Source: Desulfobotulus mexicanus (GTDB lineage Bacteria; Desulfobacterota; Desulfobacteria; Desulfobacterales; ASO4-4). From it: DNA of 64,000 bases. Location of the stretch: contig NZ_VDMB01000004.1 of the NCBI RefSeq assembly GCF_006175995.1, positions 1 through 64,000 on the forward strand, written 5' to 3'. The position numbers and the translations under genes were made by a program. This document shows positions 3,200 to 13,342 of this stretch, piece after piece (the first letter of the stretch is position 1; each line of letters opens with the position of its first letter). The notes beneath the pieces are model-generated. The model saw only the letters and a list, made by a program, of their open reading frames with translations. It was not told the DNA's origin and did no database searches.

Positions 3200-4354
3200 T
3201 CAGAAAATATATCCTTTTTTTCCAAAGATTCCAATATAAAATTTTTTCCCGCTTTTCAGTTCCCTGATTTTTCCCGTCATTTCCTTTAATCCGTTTTCTT
3301 CCGCCATTATTCTGAATTTTTCTTCGGAAATCAGATGCATGTGGGGAGCGAGTTGTTTCAGGCTGTCATAGGGCGTTTCTGAGACTTTTTTGATGTATTC
3401 GTCATGCAGTTGAAGTACGGCAACCATCTGACCTTCGTCTTCAAGCCATTTGCTGATTTTTTTCAGCAGGGGGTCAGGGGACAGGTATTCAAAGATCAGC
3501 CCTGCAAAAATGAGTGAATATTTCTGCCCATGATTTTCAAAGGTATTGAGGTCCGCTTCTATGGTCCGCAGACATGGAAGCGTATCGGTGTAGCGTTGCT
3601 GGAGAATTTTTAAATATTCCGGGTTGATGTCAATGGCATCCAGGACCTCTGTACTTTCCCTTCGGATATGGCGGAAGCCGTTTCCCGTGGAGCAGCCAAG
3701 ACATGCCACAGAACGGCTGTTGCAGGCACCAAGGGATTGCTTGAAAACTTCTTCCAGAAAGGATAGCTGATTGACTTCCGGAAGAGCCATGTGGCCCTCA
3801 TAATCCGACGCCGGAATATGCAGCCATGGATTCTCCATGCTGCTTTGTGATGGTATGGGTGGGGGAAATCTGTACTCCATAAATACAACATCGGGATAAG
3901 GATTAAAACAGTAGGGTTCAATTTCTTTAAACCCGCAGTCTTTGTAAAGCCGCAGCGCAGACCCAAGTCTGGCAACACTGTCCAGACGTACGGCCTGATA
4001 AGCAAGGCTTGCTGCTCTGGTAAGGAAGGCCTCCGTCAGGGCTTTACCAATTCCTTTGCCCTGATAGGGTTTAAGGACATACATGCGCTTCATTTCTCCC
4101 ATACCCGGAGCGATTGGCCTTAGTGCAACGCATCCCACATAAGTTTCTTCCATCTTCGCCAGCAGCAGAAAGCCATTGGGCGGTCCATACATGGATGGAA
4201 GATTCTCCAGTTCATCGGTAAAACCTTGAAACTCCAGGTCAAAGCCGAGAAATACCGCATATTCTTTAAAAAGTCCTGCGCCAGCATCATACTGTTCCGG
4301 TCGTTCTGCTTCTTCAATTACAAGGGGCATGATTCCATTCCATTGCCGAATCAT
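3200..4354 (-). CDS. GNAT acetyltransferase fused to SAM-dependent methyltransferase
   Basis: 384 residues in two parts. Residues 10-163 form a GNAT N-acetyltransferase fold with the acetyl-CoA loop QGKGIGKAL (about 98-106) and the C-terminal strand LRLYKDCGFKEIEPY. Residues 195-384 form a class I methyltransferase with motif I CLGCSTGNG (about 218-226), the acidic residue after motif II (AIDINPEY) and motif IV FAGLIFEYL. The linker is proline-rich. Substrates cannot be named. GNAT domains of this subtype ('small-molecule', YPDVVFMEY end) usually act on metabolites. The ATG at 4354 directly abuts the stop codon of the decayed HPt copy, so the gene may be read from that remnant's transcript. 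M9 is an alternative start. Confidence 0.8.
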   Translation of the reverse strand: MIRQWNGIMPLVIEEAERPEQYDAGAGLFKEYAVFLGFDLEFQGFTDELENLPSMYGPPNGFLLLAKMEETYVGCVALRPIAPGMGEMKRMYVLKPYQGKGIGKALTEAFLTRAASLAYQAVRLDSVARLGSALRLYKDCGFKEIEPYCFNPYPDVVFMEYRFPPPIPSQSSMENPWLHIPASDYEGHMALPEVNQLSFLEEVFKQSLGACNSRSVACLGCSTGNGFRHIRRESTEVLDAIDINPEYLKILQQRYTDTLPCLRTIEADLNTFENHGQKYSLIFAGLIFEYLSPDPLLKKISKWLEDEGQMVAVLQLHDEYIKKVSETPYDSLKQLAPHMHLISEEKFRIMAEENGLKEMTGKIRELKSGKKFYIGIFGKKGYIF

Positions 4355-4597: not shown

Positions 4598-5620
4598 TCA
4601 GGAACTTGAATACCTTGTAGTTGAAATTTGTTTTTGTCGGCTTATCATAAGGTTCTGGTAAGCATCCAAACGTAGAAAGTCTTGTCCAATTGAAAAAATA
4701 TCCTGCATTTTTAAAATTATTTTTTCAGCATTAAAATTTTCCATAGTGTCTGTCTCTGCATGGATATCAAGCATCATGTGGTGAGCATCAGGTGAAAAAT
4801 CAAAATCTGCGGTTTTCAATGTTCGTTGTTTGTCGTTCTGGCTTGTCTTGAAGGTCATGCATCCAGACTGGGGGTGAAAAACTACGCTAAGTAGGGTGTC
4901 GTCAATGACAGAGTCTAAAAGAGACATTGCTGAATCGGGAATGTTGATAGGGATAGCGGTAGTTTTATTATATATGGCACATGCCAGACGAGCAAAGCGG
5001 TCGAGGGATTCCGTTGATGTCCGAGACGGCGTGGATTCTCCCCCAAAACCTGCAAAAGAAGACATATATCGGAGAGATTCATCATACCAGCTATTGGTTA
5101 CAACTGATGTCTGAAAAAAAGAACCCGTATAAAAAAGTGGTTTCCCATTGCGGAACTCAAGTAATGCGTAATTTCCTGAGCTATCGGCCAACAAAAAATG
5201 CATTTCCACACGATCCGATGGAATTGTCAATTGTTCGGCCTGAATACGGACATCCTCCACGCTGGTACAGGTGTCTAGCATGAATTGTATCCATTCAAAT
5301 TCCAACAGAGCTTTGCATCCGCGGTGGTCGGGATATTCGGTACCGGGCATCCAGAGATGTTCGATGACGAGTCCACATTCATTGATGCCTCCCATTGGAA
5401 AATCAGCACCAAGAAGGTTTATAGTCAGGCTACCCCAACGACTTATCCAGTGTGCCGGGAATAGATGGTTCTGAATAATGCTCTGTTTCGATATTCCACG
5501 CAAGTTGGTAAGGATGTGGCCGTTCGTAAAAGGGACATCAAGGTTACGGGCAATCCATGTATCAGAGCCATTCCGAAGGCAAAAAGCTGAACAACCAAGT
5601 TTCAATGAAACTCCATTCAT
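4598..5620 (-). CDS. Linear amide C-N hydrolase (choloylglycine hydrolase-like Ntn hydrolase)
   Basis: 340 residues of the Ntn-hydrolase superfamily that includes bile-salt hydrolases, penicillin V acylase and acyl-transferases. Family features are a nucleophile candidate C10 (LGCSAFCL; a 9-residue propeptide would have to be removed), the arginine-Asp pair ARNLD about 15 residues later, the GGINECGLVIEHL strand carrying the conserved Asn, and LLADSSGNYALLEF. Members cleave amide bonds, for example bile-acid conjugates, penicillin V or acyl-homoserine lactones, and the substrate here is not predictable. No signal peptide is seen. The gene lies between the PAS-HPt gene and a decayed copy of that gene's 3' end, which points to insertion or duplication at this spot. 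Confidence 0.75.
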   Translation of the reverse strand: MNGVSLKLGCSAFCLRNGSDTWIARNLDVPFTNGHILTNLRGISKQSIIQNHLFPAHWISRWGSLTINLLGADFPMGGINECGLVIEHLWMPGTEYPDHRGCKALLEFEWIQFMLDTCTSVEDVRIQAEQLTIPSDRVEMHFLLADSSGNYALLEFRNGKPLFYTGSFFQTSVVTNSWYDESLRYMSSFAGFGGESTPSRTSTESLDRFARLACAIYNKTTAIPINIPDSAMSLLDSVIDDTLLSVVFHPQSGCMTFKTSQNDKQRTLKTADFDFSPDAHHMMLDIHAETDTMENFNAEKIILKMQDIFSIGQDFLRLDAYQNLMISRQKQISTTRYSSS

Positions 5621-5749: not shown

Positions 5750-6496
5750 TTAATAAAATCCTGAAATCTGAGTCTCAAAAATTTTCATCAGTGATGAATA
5801 ACCATTTTCAAGGAAGCTGAGATCTTCCATGGCCTCATTGGCATCATTGGTGAGCAGTTTTTTTTCTATACCGCAGACGGTCTGCCAAAGGGCCTCTGCA
5901 CCCACATTGAAGGAAGCGGCTTTGATCCTTTGTGCCTCTTTTTGGGCAGATGCCAGATCCCTTTTTTCCATTGCCGTTTTCAGCGTATGGATGCGTTCTG
6001 GAATCTGTTTCAGAAAACTCTGCAGAATACGCTGCGCCATTTCCGTATCTCCCATGCTTCCAAGAATGTTGGGGTTCCAGATCAGTGGCTTAATTTCATA
6101 AGATGGCAGGCTTCTGGTATGGAGGCCGAATCTGTTATGCAAAGGCATTTCAAGGGGAGTAATAACTGTCAGAATATGGGGGAGAGCCTGAATGGTAAAC
6201 TGCTCTGCTGAAAGTGCAGCCTTAATGAGTTTGCCATTTTTATGATTAAGCAGCACTTCTATATCATATATACAGCTTTGTTTTACAACTGTCTCATAGA
6301 TTGTATGGTGCAGATCCCTGTTCTGAAATAGCCCAAGGACACTGGCGCTTCTTCCCAGAACTTCATCTCTTTCATAACCGAGAACCTTCAGGAAGGCTTC
6401 ATTTACATCCGTATATTTTCTTTCCCAAAGTCCGGATAAGGTCATCATGGAAGGATTGTTGCGGAAAAAAACTTCAAACTCTTTCTGGGAGGACAT
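5750..6496 (-). CDS. PAS domain protein with HPt-like domain lacking the phospho-His
   Basis: 248 residues. An N-terminal PAS domain (about 3-115: RKYTDVNEAFLKVLGYERDE, RSASVLGLF) is followed by an HPt-like four-helix domain (about 140-248). In HPt proteins the phosphorylated His lies in a motif like A-H-x-L-K-G; here the segment reads EAQRIKAASFNVGAEAL, with Gln (Q189) at the His position and Ala for the Gly. It therefore cannot take phosphate in the usual way. The gene is in the same frame as the HisKA-like gene upstream, separated only by one TAA codon and two sense codons. Its 3' end is duplicated at 4355-4590. It may be a protein-interaction module of the neighbouring chemosensory array or a decaying relay protein. 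Confidence 0.75.
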   Translation of the reverse strand: MSSQKEFEVFFRNNPSMMTLSGLWERKYTDVNEAFLKVLGYERDEVLGRSASVLGLFQNRDLHHTIYETVVKQSCIYDIEVLLNHKNGKLIKAALSAEQFTIQALPHILTVITPLEMPLHNRFGLHTRSLPSYEIKPLIWNPNILGSMGDTEMAQRILQSFLKQIPERIHTLKTAMEKRDLASAQKEAQRIKAASFNVGAEALWQTVCGIEKKLLTNDANEAMEDLSFLENGYSSLMKIFETQISGFY

Positions 6497-6502
6497 GAAT
6501 TC

Positions 6503-6781
6503 TTATTCTTTCGTAGACAGGAAATCCTGATGAATCAGTTCATTAAAACAATTTACTATGTCCAGTAGTTCGTAGGCACACATCGTTATGAATTCTACAC
6601 ATTCAAGCTGGTCTTCATCAAGATCCGTACTTAAAAGCAGTGCAGACATACCTATAATGCCATTCATGGGATTGCGGATTTCATATCCTGCCCTTGCAAT
6701 GAAACGGCTTTGGGCCAGGCTTATCATTTCGCTTTTCATAAGGCCGGATGCCAGCCTTTCTTTCAGTGCCTGTCTCGACAT
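6503..6781 (-). CDS. Stand-alone HisKA-like domain with His-to-Tyr change
   Basis: 92 residues that match only the dimerisation/phosphoacceptor hairpin of histidine kinases: AQSRFIARAGYEIRNPMNG, then IIGMSALLLSTDLDEDQ and a second helix. The usual H-box is 'M-S-H-E-I-R-T-P'; here it is A-G-Y-E-I-R-N-P, with TAT at the site of a His CAT (one base different). No ATPase domain follows. It cannot be a working kinase. It might form dimers with other HisKA domains or be a remnant of a longer hybrid kinase. It lies 71 bases after the chemoreceptor gene and one stop codon before the PAS-HPt gene, so the two are probably co-transcribed. Confidence 0.7.
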   Translation of the reverse strand: MSRQALKERLASGLMKSEMISLAQSRFIARAGYEIRNPMNGIIGMSALLLSTDLDEDQLECVEFITMCAYELLDIVNCFNELIHQDFLSTKE

Positions 6782-6805
6782 ATAATCTTCCCTTTGAACA
6801 GTTTT

Positions 6806-6845
6806 CCCCCTCCGGTCAGAGACAAAAGCTGGGGTCCGGAGGGGG
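6806..6845 (-). other. Stable intercistronic hairpin
   Basis: A perfect 10-bp stem (CCCCCTCCGG / CCGGAGGGGG) with a 20-base loop lies between the chemoreceptor stop (6853) and the HisKA-like start (6781). There is no T-run after it on the minus strand. It could be an mRNA-stabilising element or an imperfect terminator that lowers expression of the HisKA/HPt-like genes. Confidence 0.55.
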
Positions 6846-6852
6846 ATAATTT

Positions 6853-8859
6853 TTAAAATTTAAACTGGGCTACCAGCTTCTGAAGGGTTACTGAAAGCTT
6901 TGAAAGTTCTCCGGCACTCTCACTGACCTGAAGTCCTTTGTTTTTCATTTCTCCCATGGCGTGGGTGATGCCAGCGATGTCCTTTGCCGTTTCCTGAATC
7001 ACAGTTGCGTTCTGGCTGGCCCCTTCATGGGCCGATTCAATTCCTCGTGAAACCTGGGCCACGTTAGCTGCCACCTCGCTGGCAGCAGTGGACTGCTGCT
7101 CCACGGCTGCGGCTATGTTGCCCACCACATCACTGACCTCATTGATGACCTTTGTAATATCACCAACTTCCTTAACCGTGGTGACGGTGGTGTTCTGTAT
7201 ATCCTCAATTTTTTCCCTGATATCCTGAGTGGCACTGGCCGTCTGCCGGGCAAGTTCTTTTATTTCATTGGCGACTACTGCAAAACCCTTGCCAGCATCT
7301 CCTGCTCTTGCAGCTTCTATTGTTGCGTTGAGGGCCAGCAGATTCACCTGTTCAGAAATATCCGTAATTGTTTCAATTACCTTGCCTATCGCATTGGCTG
7401 CGGTTTTAAGACTTCCCATATGATCGGACATGTTGGCGGCACGGTCTGCGGCATCACTGGAAATACTCCTTGCTTTGCCCGCATTCTGGGCAATCTCTGA
7501 TATGGTGGCGGACATTTCTTCGGATGCCGTTGCCAGAAGGTTGGTGTTGCTGGATGATTCTTCCAAAGAAGCTGCTGCCATATCAATGGTGCTGCTGATC
7601 TCTTCGGAAGCTGCAGCTACATTAGTGCTTCTTTCCGACACATCCTGAACCCCCTTGCTGGTTTCTTCGGCAATGGCAGAAAGCTGGGTGGCTGAAGAAG
7701 ACAGGGTATGTACACCACTGCCTATGTCCCGGATAATTCCCTGCAGTTTTTCCACAAAGGTATTAAACCAGCGTGCCAGCTCCCCGACTTCATCTCTGGT
7801 ATTGATTTTAAGACGCATGGTGAGGTCTCCCTCGCCCTCGGCAATATCCTTCAGACCAGCCACAGCCGCATTGATGGGAGAAACAATGGAGCGGACCACA
7901 AAGGTGACAACAAGGCCCACAAGGGCAAGGGAGACAAGAATAACTATAATAAGAATGTTACGTACACCCACGGCACTTGAAAGGAATTCCACATGATCCT
8001 GGGTTGCGGAAACCACCCAGCCTGTATTTTTTACAGGAGCAAAACCCGCCATTTTGCGAACACCCTGAAAAACATAACTGTTGGCTCCTGGCTGTCCCTT
8101 GAACATTTCTCTGGCGATGTGCTGCATTTCAGGAATATTGTTGATATCCGTTTCAAGGACAAGTTTCTGGTTGGGATGGGCCAGAACAACGCCTTTTTCA
8201 TTGAGCATGTAGCCGTATCCCGTTCTTCCCAGTGTGCGGCTGGCTACAATCTCCGTGAGGTAGCCAGCCTTGATCACCGTTGCAAATACACCCAGAAAAT
8301 CACCATTTCTTGAATAGATCGGGGTGTTGATGGGCATTACCAGATTGCCTGTGGCCGCAGAGATAAATACATGGCCTATGGTGGTTTCACGGGAGGACAT
8401 CGCTCTTTTGAATTCGTTATTATTGGCAATATTGAAGCCAATGTATTCTTTGCCGTTTTCAAGGATACCCGTCAGCAGTTCACCCTTGGCATCGGCCACA
8501 AAAACGCCCTGATGGTTGGCTGACATCCGGCTTTCCTTCAGGTTTTCAAAAAGTGCCAGTGCCTCTGGCCTAGAAGCTTCCACACCCTTTTCCCTTGCTG
8601 CGTAAAGCAGTTCCTGAACAAGACTCTGGTCTGACATGGATTCACAAAGACGCATTTCTGCAAAAAGAAGGTTGTCCATGAGATTGGCAAGGTCCTGGGC
8701 AACACCCATGGTATTTTCGGCGGCGTTTTCTGTAAGTGCTGCGGTGGATCTTGTGATGGCAAGGGTACCCACCACCAGAAGGGGCAGAAGAACGGAGAGG
8801 ATGGCCATTGCAAAAATACGGAAACCAATGGATCGGATATTTACGGACTTCATGATCAT
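6853..8859 (-). CDS. Methyl-accepting chemotaxis protein, dCache-HAMP type
   Basis: 668 residues. TM1 lies at about 13-33, and a large extracytoplasmic double-Cache domain (about 36-295) shows [19 protein letters not shown] and [17 protein letters not shown]2 is at about 300-322, followed by a HAMP domain ([20 protein letters not shown] onward) and the MCP signalling domain with tip [19 protein letters not shown]. dCache domains of this kind bind small ligands such as amino or carboxylic acids; the ligand is unknown. No C-terminal CheR-binding pentapeptide is present (end LVAQFKF). It is downstream of cheW, but a terminator-like hairpin at 8893-8927 separates them. Confidence 0.95.
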
Positions 8860-8892
8860 AAGCTCCTTTTTCCAGATGTTTTCTGTCCGATT

Positions 8893-8927
8893 AAAAAAAC
8901 AGGGTTTATGGGGCAGGCCTGTTTTTT
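8893..8927 (-). terminator. Rho-independent terminator between cheW and the mcp gene
   Basis: A 10-bp stem AAAAAACAGG / CCTGTTTTTT with a 14-base loop is followed on the minus strand by seven T. It should stop or reduce read-through from cheA-cheW into the downstream chemoreceptor. The A-rich and T-rich arms make it symmetric, but no plus-strand gene ends here. Confidence 0.65.
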
Positions 8928-8951
8928 ATAAAAACTGATCAAAGAAAATAT

Positions 8952-9374
8952 TCATGTTTCCAGTATGGTTTTCAGATCCAGCAGACCAATGAGCTTTTTA
9001 TCCGTTTTAAATACACCTTTAAAAAAACGGCCCTGTACCCCACTCAGATTGGAGGGTGGAGGCTCAATTTTCAAGGAGTCCGCAATGACCACATCTTCAA
9101 TTTTTCCCACCAGCAGGCCCAGATGTTCATCCTCATACCCCACCACAAGGGTTCGGCTGTCTTTTACGGGCAGAAGACCCAGCCTGAGGCCCATGTCCAT
9201 CACAGTAAGAATGCGGCCCCGGAGATTCATGACTCCTACGAGCCAGTCCTCAGAACCGGGTACTGGTGTAATCTCCGTATGGTTGTTCATCTCCTTAATG
9301 TTTAAAATATCAATGCCGCAGAGGGTTTCTCCCACATAGAATGTGGCAAGTTCCAGAATGGATGGGGCTGCCAT
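8952..9374 (-). CDS. cheW: Chemotaxis coupling protein CheW
   Basis: 140 residues, a single CheW (SH3-like double barrel) domain: LATFYVGETLCGIDILNIKE, EDWLVGVMNLRGRILTVMDM and VVIADSLKIEPPP. CheW links chemoreceptor tips to CheA in the membrane-associated array. It starts 27 bases after the cheA stop, so the two are surely co-transcribed. The key 'NLRG' turn that contacts receptors and CheA is present. No unusual features. Confidence 0.95.
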   Translation of the reverse strand: MAAPSILELATFYVGETLCGIDILNIKEMNNHTEITPVPGSEDWLVGVMNLRGRILTVMDMGLRLGLLPVKDSRTLVVGYEDEHLGLLVGKIEDVVIADSLKIEPPPSNLSGVQGRFFKGVFKTDKKLIGLLDLKTILET

Positions 9375-9401
9375 GGGTTTTTCCTTTCCTGAAGAAATTT
9401 T

Positions 9402-11231
9402 TTATAAATCAACAGTACTGCCCAGAAGGGTCCGGACCAGAGTGAAAATATCCACCATAAGGGTGGTGCGTCCGCCCACAATAATGGAACCCATGATGCC
9501 CGGCTGTTTCAGGGTACGCTGATCCATCTCAATGGTAACTTCCACCGCATCCACAGGTCCATTGACCATCAGGCCCATTTCCCTGCCATCTATCCGGAAA
9601 ACAATGACTTCCACTTGTTCATTTACACAGATGGGATCAAGGCTGGTGCATTCTGTGAGCTCATGCAGGGGCAGCGAGCCTCCCCTGTACTGCAGCACCC
9701 TTCTGCCTCCCGCATACTCGATATCTGCTGCCCTGATGCGTTCAATGCGTTCCACAAGATCCAGAGGTACGGCGCATTGCCCATGTTCTCCATTACGGAA
9801 AAGAAGCAGGGCTGTTTTGTCTTCCTTCATGCTTTTAATTTTATCGGTATGCATCTGATGATTATGGCTGGCAGAGCTGTCAGCTGAAGAAAGGGCTGCC
9901 ATCACCGCAAGAGAGGCCACATCCAGAATCAAGGCAACACGCCCGTCTCCCATGATGGTGGCACCAGAATATCCTTTGCAGTCTTTAAGGTGTCGGCCTA
10001 AGGGTTTTACCACAATTTCTTCAGAATCCATTAATCCATCCACAAGAAGTCCGTAACTGAAAGCACCTGTGGAGACCACGGCTATATGTATGGCGCTTTC
10101 TGCTCTGTACCGACGGTCTTTATTTTTTCTTGGTTGCAGTTCTTCAGACAGGTCAGACTTATGGTTTTCCGGAACCCGGCTGCTCAAGTCCGGAGACCTG
10201 CGGTCTGCAATATTGGTTCTGCGGTCGGGTTTTTCTTCTCCGGTAACGGGGTCTTTGTAGGTGCGGGGGATGCCCAGTACTTCAGCCAGATTCAGTATGG
10301 GAAGCAGTACACCCCTGAGCCGGAGAACCGGGGCATTGCCTACCTTTTCAATGCGTTCTTTCACCTGTGCCGCAGGAATACGGATCAATTCATTGAGATT
10401 GACCTGGGGGATGGCATAGCGTTCTCTGCCCACAGAAATAATCTGGCTGGGGATGATGGCAAGGGTCAGGGGAAGTTTGATACGGATGCGGGTACCTTTA
10501 TCCATAGCAGATTCGATGTCAACAATGCCACCCAGCCGGTCAAGGTTGGTTTTCACCACATCCATGCCGACTCCACGGCCTGACACATCTGTAAGCTGTT
10601 GGGCTGTGGAAAATCCGGGGAGAAAAATAAGATTGATTTTTTCCCTTGTCCCCATAGTTAGAAGTTCTGTTTCAGTAACCATCCCCTTGTTCAGAGCAGA
10701 TGAGGCAATGGCTTCAGGGTCCATCCCCTTGCCATCATCTTCTATTTCAATATTTACTTGACCTGCTTCATGAAAAGCCCTCAGCTTAATGATACCTGCT
10801 TCCGGTTTGTTTTTTTGCAGGCGGATTTCTGGCTTTTCAATGCCGTGATCCACGGCATTTCTCAGAAGATGGGTGAGGGGGTCCTGAATGGCCTCTATGA
10901 TGGTTTTATCCAGCTCCACTTCATTGCCATGGATTGAAAGGTCAATTTTTTTATCAAGGGAAAGGGAGAGATCCCGGACAATACGGCTGAACTTATCAAA
11001 AATATTGGCAATGGGCTGCATGCGTGTGCGCATGATGGCTTCCTGCAACTCGGATGTGATCATGTCAATGCGCTGTCCTGCCACTTCAACGGCTCTGGAA
11101 TTGCTGGTGGAGATACTCTGAGAGAGCTGGTTGCGGCTTAAAACCAGCTCTCCGGCCAGTGTCATGAGACTGTCCAGAAGGTGTACATTTACCCTGAGGG
11201 AGCCTGTTTGTCGGGTCTGATCTTCGGACAT
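9402..11231 (-). CDS. cheA: CheA-type histidine kinase lacking the P1 (HPt) domain
   Basis: 609 residues beginning directly with the P3 dimerisation helices (about 10-75, VHLLDSLMTLAGELVLSRNQ). The P4 ATPase has all boxes intact: N-box HLLRNAVDHGIE (about 121-132), G1 DDGKGMD, F-box FLPGFSTA, G2 GRGVGMDVV. Two CheW-like regulatory domains follow (about 255-440, with a charged insert near 320-375, and about 470-605). A normal CheA starts with a P1 HPt domain carrying the autophosphorylated His. Here neither P1 nor P2 exists, and no separate P1 gene lies upstream. Rhodobacter sphaeroides CheA4 is a known P1-less precedent that phosphorylates the P1 of CheA3. It is flanked by an mcp (41 bp upstream) and cheW. 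Confidence 0.92.
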   Translation of the reverse strand: MSEDQTRQTGSLRVNVHLLDSLMTLAGELVLSRNQLSQSISTSNSRAVEVAGQRIDMITSELQEAIMRTRMQPIANIFDKFSRIVRDLSLSLDKKIDLSIHGNEVELDKTIIEAIQDPLTHLLRNAVDHGIEKPEIRLQKNKPEAGIIKLRAFHEAGQVNIEIEDDGKGMDPEAIASSALNKGMVTETELLTMGTREKINLIFLPGFSTAQQLTDVSGRGVGMDVVKTNLDRLGGIVDIESAMDKGTRIRIKLPLTLAIIPSQIISVGRERYAIPQVNLNELIRIPAAQVKERIEKVGNAPVLRLRGVLLPILNLAEVLGIPRTYKDPVTGEEKPDRRTNIADRRSPDLSSRVPENHKSDLSEELQPRKNKDRRYRAESAIHIAVVSTGAFSYGLLVDGLMDSEEIVVKPLGRHLKDCKGYSGATIMGDGRVALILDVASLAVMAALSSADSSASHNHQMHTDKIKSMKEDKTALLLFRNGEHGQCAVPLDLVERIERIRAADIEYAGGRRVLQYRGGSLPLHELTECTSLDPICVNEQVEVIVFRIDGREMGLMVNGPVDAVEVTIEMDQRTLKQPGIMGSIIVGGRTTLMVDIFTLVRTLLGSTVDL

Positions 11232-11272
11232 GGCAGTTCCTTTTTTATGGTAATAGATTTGTCGCTCTATTT

Positions 11273-13342
11273 TTAAACCCTGAAACGTCCCACCAGCTCA
11301 GTAAGATCCCGGCCCAGCATGGCCAGATTGCCGGAATTGTCCGATACGGCAAGGGCATCCTTTGTGAGATTATCCCCACGGGTATTGATGCCTGAGATGT
11401 CAGAGGCCATTTCTCTGGCTGCTGTGGAAATCTGGCTGATATTGGCATTGACCTCCTGCACACCGGAAGAAGCCTGTGAAATATTATCTGCAATTTCCCG
11501 TACAGCGCTGCTTTGCTCCTCCACTGCCGTGGCAATGGTGGTATTGATTTCAGAGATTTCTGCAATCACCCGAACCACTTCATCAATGGAATGCAGGGTT
11601 TTTCCGGTAAGCTGTTGTATGCCTTCGATGCGGGTTTTTATTTCCTGTGTGGCTTTGCCTGTCTGCCGGGCAAGTTCCTTGATTTCTCCGGCCACTACGG
11701 CAAATCCCTTGCCCGCATCCCCGGCCCTTGCCGCTTCAATGGTAGCATTCAGTGCCAGCAGGTTGGTCTGATCAGCAATATCCGTAATGGTTTCAGTTAC
11801 ACTGCTGATCTGTCGGGCTGCCTGCTCAAGGGATCGCATGTACTGGGATGCGGACTGGCTTGTGGTCACGGCGTTTTCGGAAATGTTTCTAGCCCTTTCG
11901 GAATGGGCTGCAATTTCGGTAATGGTGGCCGTCATTTCTTCGGTGGCTGTGGCGACCATGTAGGTGCTGGTACTGGCCTGTTCCATGGCAGCGGCTACAG
12001 CCTGTATATTGCTGCTCATTGCATGGGATGCCGCAGCAACCCGGCCTGCATTTTCAGCACTGCCACGGGTTTCACCGGCCATACGGGTAGCAATGGTATC
12101 AAGACCCTGTGATGCGGAACCAAGCGTACCTGCATTGGTCTGAATCTGACCCATCATGTTTTGCAGTTTTTCCATAAACTGGTTGAAGCTTACGCCAAGA
12201 AGACCGATTTCATCCCGACTTTGCACGGGCAGACGTTGGGTGAGATCTCCCTCTCCCTCAGATATTTCCTTAAGATTTTCTGCCACCCTGCGGATGGGTC
12301 GAACCACCATACGGTCTGCAATAAAAAAAACGAGAATAAACAGGATGAGGATGGACAGAATACCGAGACCTGCGCTGATATTTCGGATATGTCGTGAACC
12401 CTCCAGCACCTTATCAAGGGACACGGCCAGTCCTATGCTCCATGGGGCATCGCTGTTGCCGAGCTGTATGGGGGCATAAACAGTGAAGCTTCGTCCACCC
12501 AGAAGGGCGGAACGGCCATATTCAGTAATGATTTTTCCACGGGCAACGGCCTGAATGATGTTTTCACCGATGCCAAAGTCCCTCATGTGCGCACCGATGG
12601 CCTTGTCCATGGGATGGGCAGCTCCGATGCCATCATTGGACAGCAGAAAACCGTAACTGTACTCTTTGCCAAAGGGATGAACCCCGGCAATGATGGCGGC
12701 CATCTGTTCCATGGAGATATCAATGCCTGCAACGCCCACAATCCGGCCCTTTGAGCGGATGGGTACGCTGAGGGAAACCAGAATGATTTCTTTACCGCCA
12801 ATCTCATAGGCTGTGGGCGGCGTGATGAATTCTTTTCCGCTTCGGAAAGGTTTCCAGTACCAGCTGCCGTTACTGCTGTTTTCCTCATAGGCACTGGCAT
12901 CTGAAATATCCAGTTCGGGTTTTCCGCTGAGCCTGTGCCAGTAGGGCATAAATCGGCCTTTGTCATCGCTTCCCGGCGTATTGATGAAATCTGCATCCCT
13001 TCCCTCAAAGGCATCAGGGTGCCAGACCGCCCATATCCCCCAGTAGCTCTCGTTGGCAGCAAGGAGACCGTGCATAAGTGCATTGACCATGGAACGTTCC
13101 GGAGCATTTTTTGTACCCTGAACGGCTCCCATCATCTGTGCCAGCGCCCTTGCCGCATCCAGAGGTTCCTCCATTTTGGCCTTGATTGCACCGCCATGGT
13201 GATGGGCTGCTTCAATGGCCAGGCGCTGGCCGTTTTCAAACAGCTCTTCCGAGGCCATGGAGCTGATGAGCCAGATGGTAAGGATAAAAGCAAGGGAGGC
13301 TGCGCCACAGACGCTGCCGATCATTTTTTTTTTGAGATTCAT
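11273..13342 (-). CDS. Methyl-accepting chemotaxis protein, dCache-HAMP type
   Basis: 689 residues. TM1 is at about 7-28. A double-Cache extracytoplasmic domain (about 35-315) contains WGIWAVWHPDAFEGRDADF and VGVAGIDISMEQMAAIIAG, typical of dCache receptors. TM2 is near 323-347, followed by HAMP (MVVRPIRRVAENLKEISEGE) and the signalling domain with tip [19 protein letters not shown]. No CheR pentapeptide at the end (LVGRFRV). This is the first gene of the chemosensory operon, followed after 41 bases by the P1-less cheA. It should be the main receptor of that kinase. The ligand is unknown. Confidence 0.95.
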   Translation of the reverse strand: MNLKKKMIGSVCGAASLAFILTIWLISSMASEELFENGQRLAIEAAHHHGGAIKAKMEEPLDAARALAQMMGAVQGTKNAPERSMVNALMHGLLAANESYWGIWAVWHPDAFEGRDADFINTPGSDDKGRFMPYWHRLSGKPELDISDASAYEENSSNGSWYWKPFRSGKEFITPPTAYEIGGKEIILVSLSVPIRSKGRIVGVAGIDISMEQMAAIIAGVHPFGKEYSYGFLLSNDGIGAAHPMDKAIGAHMRDFGIGENIIQAVARGKIITEYGRSALLGGRSFTVYAPIQLGNSDAPWSIGLAVSLDKVLEGSRHIRNISAGLGILSILILFILVFFIADRMVVRPIRRVAENLKEISEGEGDLTQRLPVQSRDEIGLLGVSFNQFMEKLQNMMGQIQTNAGTLGSASQGLDTIATRMAGETRGSAENAGRVAAASHAMSSNIQAVAAAMEQASTSTYMVATATEEMTATITEIAAHSERARNISENAVTTSQSASQYMRSLEQAARQISSVTETITDIADQTNLLALNATIEAARAGDAGKGFAVVAGEIKELARQTGKATQEIKTRIEGIQQLTGKTLHSIDEVVRVIAEISEINTTIATAVEEQSSAVREIADNISQASSGVQEVNANISQISTAAREMASDISGINTRGDNLTKDALAVSDNSGNLAMLGRDLTELVGRFRV

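Follow-up and report, generated by a model that had tools for sequence, protein, structure and literature searches.

The window analysed here, bases 1-64000 of contig C4 in a 3.83-Mb Desulfobotulus genome (Desulfobacterales; G000), carries a chemosensory operon whose CheA lacks the P1 domain. Judging by sequence, this CheA goes back to the duplication of a full-length CheA, encoded elsewhere in the same genomes, from which it has since diverged. Downstream of it lies a gene for a small protein comprising only a HisKA (DHp) domain, with a tyrosine at the position of the phosphoacceptor histidine. Our preferred reading, to which we give about even chances, is a dispersed split-CheA system, in which the P1-less CheA would act in trans on its full-length paralogue and phosphorylate the P1 there. 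The locus is known from two species, the window species and D. alkaliphilus ASO4-4 (G001), whose counterpart stretch (L088) was taken from NZ_VLLC01000009.1; together with a third Desulfobotulus (G002), they represent one genus. All counts below cover the genomes compared, among the matches listed per genome. The minus-strand order in the window is mcp1, cheA (no P1), cheW, mcp2, the HisKA-only open reading frame (ORF) and the PAS-HPt gene, as a first-pass annotation had described. The features are:

13342-11273, minus strand: mcp1, 689 aa, PDC/Cache sensor, HAMP and MCP signal domain (Pfam)
11231-9402, minus strand: cheA without P1/P2 and without REC, P3-P4-P5-P5, 609 aa (Pfam)
9374-8952, minus strand: cheW, 140 aa (Pfam)
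8859-6853, minus strand: mcp2, 668 aa, dCache_1, HAMP and MCP signal domain (Pfam)
6846-6806, minus strand: intercistronic RNA hairpin between mcp2 and the HisKA gene (RNA folds in two species)
6781-6503, minus strand: HisKA/DHp-only protein, 92 aa, Tyr33 for His (Pfam HisKA and DHp hairpin model)
6496-5750, minus strand: PAS-HPt protein, 248 aa, Gln189 for His (Pfam)
4572-4356, minus strand: decayed partial second copy of the 3' end of the Gln-HPt gene (82% DNA identity, internal stops)

In the 609-aa CheA, Pfam annotates P3, HATPase_c and CheW, all above the cut-off and the last of them in three stretches, and the protein can be aligned to T. maritima CheA (1b3q). No Pfam match to Hpt was obtained for this CheA, and the one of D. 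alkaliphilus likewise has no P1. That a P1 lies concealed or frameshifted ahead of cheA is ruled out, as the gap between mcp1 and cheA measures 41 bp and the corresponding ~250 bp in D. alkaliphilus are free of P1. Both P1-less CheAs lie inside contigs and have an identical start position; in a survey of relatives with complete N-termini, from which ORFs cut by contig ends were left out, no other P1-less CheA was found besides this pair. The retention of the ATP-binding motifs, claimed earlier, is confirmed by 49 out of 49 intact near-invariant P3-P4 positions in comparison with 111 other CheAs, and catalysis is expected, on the basis of sequence, in the P1-less CheA of the window species. The absence of a local phosphoacceptor, also claimed, holds for the operon but not for the window or the genome. 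Indeed, G000 encodes seven CheAs with a P3 domain, and the other six all have a P1 with His. One of these lies in the window itself (52138-50462), a second small CheA of 558 aa that is a distant relative with an intact P1 (FHTLKGEAGF).

The closest relative of the P1-less CheA in G000 is encoded on contig C8. This full-length paralogue has the architecture P1-P3-P4-P5-P5-REC, with His in P1 and conserved P3, P4 and CheW motifs, and its gene adjoins cheW, cheB and cheR in a place that is conserved throughout the genus as well as in a second family of the order. The P1-less CheA of the window is 72% identical to it, compared to 52% for the next CheA of the genome, and at the domain level identity reaches 81% in P3 and 88% in the C-terminal P5a. 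In a tree of 41 CheAs, the P1-less pair is sister to the three full-length CheAs of Desulfobotulus (support 98/92). The cheW of the window is 61% identical to the cheW at the full-length locus, which is consistent with duplication of a cheA/cheW pair.

The counterpart locus in D. alkaliphilus reads cheA (no P1)-cheW-mcp2-hisKA(Tyr)-GNAT, with a divergent hybrid kinase gene and an HTH-REC gene on the other flank. Gene order and phosphoacceptor positions are thus shared from cheA to hisKA(Tyr), but not for mcp1 and the PAS-HPt gene. Identity between the two species amounts to 89% for cheA, 89% for cheW, 94% for mcp2 and 90% for hisKA(Tyr), and the ratio of nonsynonymous to synonymous substitution rates (dN/dS) to 0.17, 0.13, 0.105 and 0.093, respectively; these four genes are under purifying selection. 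As mcp1 is missing at the D. alkaliphilus locus, it was rejected as part of the core block; a paralogue of it (66%) occurs on contig C13 of G000, with counterparts in G001 and G002. In G002, both flanking genes tested are absent, and the P1-less CheA is absent too. Because the tested neighbour genes are absent, this genome cannot separate gain from loss at the site. A third species carrying the locus was not found among the genomes compared.

The 92-aa ORF matches Pfam HisKA with 38.9 bits (cut-off 26.9). Its phosphoacceptor position is occupied by Tyr33 (codon 6685-6683), as first annotated, and the D. alkaliphilus orthologue has Tyr as well, compared to His in 17 out of 17 other HisKA motifs in the stretches read. 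One copy of the Tyr-HisKA motif is present in G000 and one in G001, with none in G002, and no orthologue was found in 389 genomes of the order, among the matches listed (13 per genome). The gene differs between the two species by 33 nucleotides, distributed over the three codon positions as 6/4/23, while frame, length and Tyr are unchanged. Codon changes are synonymous in 21 cases and nonsynonymous in nine, where 22.6 amino-acid changes would be expected without constraint; none of 5000 neutral simulations had as few amino-acid changes, and 57% gained a stop. Both the gene and its tyrosine are maintained. The predicted structure is a DHp hairpin (predicted local distance difference test score, pLDDT, of 86) with helices 3-49 and 56-91, and the ORF stops after the second DHp helix, with no CA domain. 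Glu34 (H+1) and Asn37 (H+4) are kept, the latter in both species; the H+4 residue is Thr in 16 out of 16 aligned hybrid-kinase DHps. A literature text search for stand-alone DHp proteins gave nothing. The idea that the Tyr-HisKA and PAS-HPt proteins are pieces of one broken hybrid kinase is not supported, since the HisKA reading frame stops at one and the same codon in the two species. The two species' versions of the hairpin that separates mcp2 from this gene fold with -25.0 and -29.7 kcal/mol, and its base pairs have changed yet been kept (CCCCC/GGGGG versus ATCCC/GGGAT in D. alkaliphilus). It may govern how much of the small protein is made.

The PAS-HPt protein has had a different fate. 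Pfam annotates a PAS domain and an Hpt that falls just short of the cut-off (24.2 versus 24.6 bits), in which the phosphoacceptor position is Gln189 (codon 5932-5930), again in line with the first-pass annotation; the other HPts inspected have His in 22 out of 22 cases. The single-sequence structure model of the whole protein is poor (pLDDT 48), with the HPt part alone being usable. In D. alkaliphilus, the gene is reduced to an 89-bp 5' fossil (79% identical) between hisKA and GNAT, and the window itself holds the decayed second copy, which lies beyond a gene of the AAT/CBAH type. In light of the fossil and the decayed copy, the Gln-HPt protein was probably present in the common ancestor of the two species, but it is dispensable. 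The loss in D. alkaliphilus led to its rejection as an essential partner, and with mcp1 lying outside the conserved block, the earlier reading is not supported for the genes as a set. The gene between PAS-HPt and the decayed copy (4598-5620; AAT/choloylglycine-hydrolase type) is absent at the D. alkaliphilus locus and may be an insertion tied to the HPt duplication. Elsewhere in the genome, hybrid histidine kinases with HPt domains lie densely packed (G000:C16:12000-76000), with about a dozen HPt matches in ~50 kb of a contig that also encodes a CheA.

The first-pass annotation had offered two options for the kinase, a distant P1 or an array that works through binding. The conserved arrangement of cheA and hisKA(Tyr) is in its favor, and the distant P1 has a candidate in the full-length paralogue. 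In R. sphaeroides, CheA4, which has no P1, phosphorylates the P1 of CheA3, and CheA3 also acts as a phosphatase of CheY6-P (PMC3591291). By analogy with CheA4/CheA3, we propose the following scheme. A full-length cheA, probably together with cheW, would have been duplicated within the Desulfobotulus lineage, and the duplicate would have shed its N-terminal P1/P2 region and its C-terminal REC to end up beside a receptor gene of its own. In arrays under mcp2, the P1-less CheA would work with its own CheW, and its P4 would phosphorylate the P1 His of the full-length paralogue, through contacts in P3-P3 heterodimers or between adjacent units where an array contains both. Input from mcp2 would in this way feed the old pathway (REC of the full-length CheA, CheB). 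The Tyr-DHp, barred from the usual phosphate site, would bind and perhaps dephosphorylate a receiver of the same pathway, with the Gln-HPt protein as a dispensable accessory. The trans-phosphorylation, the target of the kinase and the role of the Tyr-DHp are the parts that we infer. The scheme in its most specific form, a kinase-only CheA feeding an unlinked complete sister CheA and opposed by the Tyr-DHp as a CheZ/CheX-like receiver phosphatase, appears quite unlikely to be right in every element.

For the Tyr-DHp, receiver binding, possibly with phosphatase activity, is our best guess by analogy. EnvZ reportedly shows phosphatase activity without its catalytic domain, as the title of work by Zhu et al. 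from 2000 has it. DivL binds DivK~P through its Tyr-DHp, and the Y550H change leaves this binding unaffected (PMC4211667). In the HisKA kinase CrdS, the H+4 residue is essential for phosphatase activity and an H-to-A substitution just lowers it, and in both CrdS and EnvZ the His is not strictly required for this activity (PMC3510030).

Several observations speak against the scheme. Evolution has been faster in the P1-less than in the full-length lineage (stem 0.44 versus 0.078), and within the tree the branch of the D. alkaliphilus P1-less CheA is twice that of the window copy (0.10 versus 0.047). The D. alkaliphilus protein retains GxGxG and 47 out of the 49 near-invariant positions; the two changes, R219Q and V221A, both fall in the G2 box of the ATP lid. 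With these two changes and the longer branch, kinase activity in D. alkaliphilus is uncertain and may be fading. Furthermore, the contact between the two CheAs is a putative one. As for the small protein, an H-to-A substitution diminishes the phosphatase activity of HK853 (PMC5727384) and H610A abolishes that of PleC (PMC3510030); given this sensitivity to loss of the His, a phosphatase role of the Tyr protein is uncertain. Note that the G2-box changes (L088:10139-11968) occur in the same species that lost PAS-HPt, a possible step to a catalytically dead CheA.

The main rival for the 92-aa protein is a RetS-like role, in which the DHp would pair with and block the DHp of a hybrid kinase, of which the genome encodes many, instead of binding a chemosensory receiver. 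We consider this possible, if somewhat unlikely. The RetS-GacS DHp complex (7n0e) is the best structural match of the 92-aa model, with DHp structures leading the match list, and the nearest relatives beyond the orthologue are hybrid kinases; moreover, the pseudokinase ChrS is known to heterodimerize with HrrS (PMC9491836). On the other hand, a fold match names no binding partner, and the 92-aa gene sits with cheA, cheW and mcp in both species.

At the level of the whole system, the P1-less CheA could instead be a structural or dominant-negative subunit that enters arrays or heterodimers with full-length CheA and adjusts how active they are or which receptors they contain, with no need for catalysis of its own. 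That the G2 box is altered in D. alkaliphilus while cheA is under purifying selection would fit such a binding-only array, as would the slightly higher conservation of P5b (93% identical between the species) than of P4 (89%). Nonetheless, the full set of near-invariant P3-P4 positions in the window species would be unexpected if ATP use were dispensable, and GxGxG persists in D. alkaliphilus, which makes this rival unlikely in our view. That the kinase acts on another phosphoacceptor, be it an HPt encoded on its own (G000 C1:307075 or C19:10525) or the P1 in one of the five remaining CheAs, is very improbable: short HPt frames with His do exist (122 and 140 aa), yet all candidates are unlinked to the operon, the P1-less cheA of D. 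alkaliphilus has no linked HPt with His either, and none of the other CheAs comes anywhere near the full-length paralogue in similarity. Plain decay, i.e., stepwise loss of P1, of the His residues and later of PAS-HPt in a degenerating operon, is the least probable of all and largely refuted for cheA and hisKA(Tyr): PAS-HPt was indeed lost in D. alkaliphilus, the window holds its partial decayed duplicate and the P1-less CheA evolves faster, but cheA, cheW, mcp2 and hisKA(Tyr) are intact in both species with a dN/dS of 0.09-0.17, the frame, length and Tyr of the latter survived substitutions that would often create a stop under neutrality, and the signs of decay sought for cheA and the HisKA protein in D. 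alkaliphilus (a restored His, a P1 beside cheA, frameshifts) were not found.

Two further genes of the window differ from their D. alkaliphilus counterparts. The start of a periplasmic-binding-protein-like gene (236-712) is open for 158 codons only and is broken near the contig end; its counterpart encodes 479 aa, with a C-terminal part that is GGDEF-like in look. An acetyltransferase-like gene (3200-4354; 384 aa) has a C-terminal extension resembling an S-adenosylmethionine (SAM) methyltransferase. The counterpart of this gene measures 156 aa, and the methyltransferase-like part is missing from that stretch.

Among known systems, DivL of Caulobacter likewise has a selection-maintained Tyr at the DHp phosphoacceptor position, but it contains PAS and CA domains, whereas the protein described here is a bare 92-aa DHp hairpin. 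With the DHps of EnvZ, CrdS and HK853, it shares the hairpin and an Asn or Thr at H+4; unlike these HisKA phosphatases, it has neither a catalytic domain nor the His, and its activity is putative. It is a minimal natural case in which to ask whether a DHp on its own, lacking the His, can act as a sensor or phosphatase of receivers. For the P1-less CheA, E. coli CheA_S provides a first parallel, being P1-less, kinase-competent and able to phosphorylate the P1 of its full-length partner within the dimer. CheA_S stems from an internal start, in contrast to the separate, diverged gene found here. In their survey of thousands of CheAs, Berry, Andrianova and Zhulin found Hpt in 98.3% and concluded that every CheA has P1 as a core domain; CheAs without Hpt were located at contig ends or had an HPt gene in the operon, and the partition in R. 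sphaeroides was called 'unique' (PMC10782961). The Desulfobotulus locus fits neither explanation and is a clean exception, conserved in two species and inside contigs. It shares with the bipartite CheAs (Berry et al. 2023, PMC10782961) a CheA core without Hpt domain, but the sole HPt of the operon has Gln189 and its gene is lost in D. alkaliphilus.

By its sequence features, the system would work most like the split CheA of R. sphaeroides. CheA4 has the same P1-less P3-P4-P5 composition, its P1 target resides on another CheA-derived protein, and duplication of the core region is thought to be its origin. Yet this is no CheA3/CheA4 pair, because the candidate partner is unlinked and complete. 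In R. sphaeroides, the two genes are co-operonic, CheA3 has lost its kinase function and the two proteins function as a single CheA. In Desulfobotulus, the candidate partner on C8 is a complete CheA with its own cheW, cheB and cheR; the P1-less CheA, for its part, contains two CheW domains and is encoded with a cheW and an mcp of its own and a Tyr-DHp gene. If true, a dispersed type of split CheA would join the one already known, and trans action on the complete paralogue would imply that a duplicated CheA can turn into a pure input module of an existing pathway.

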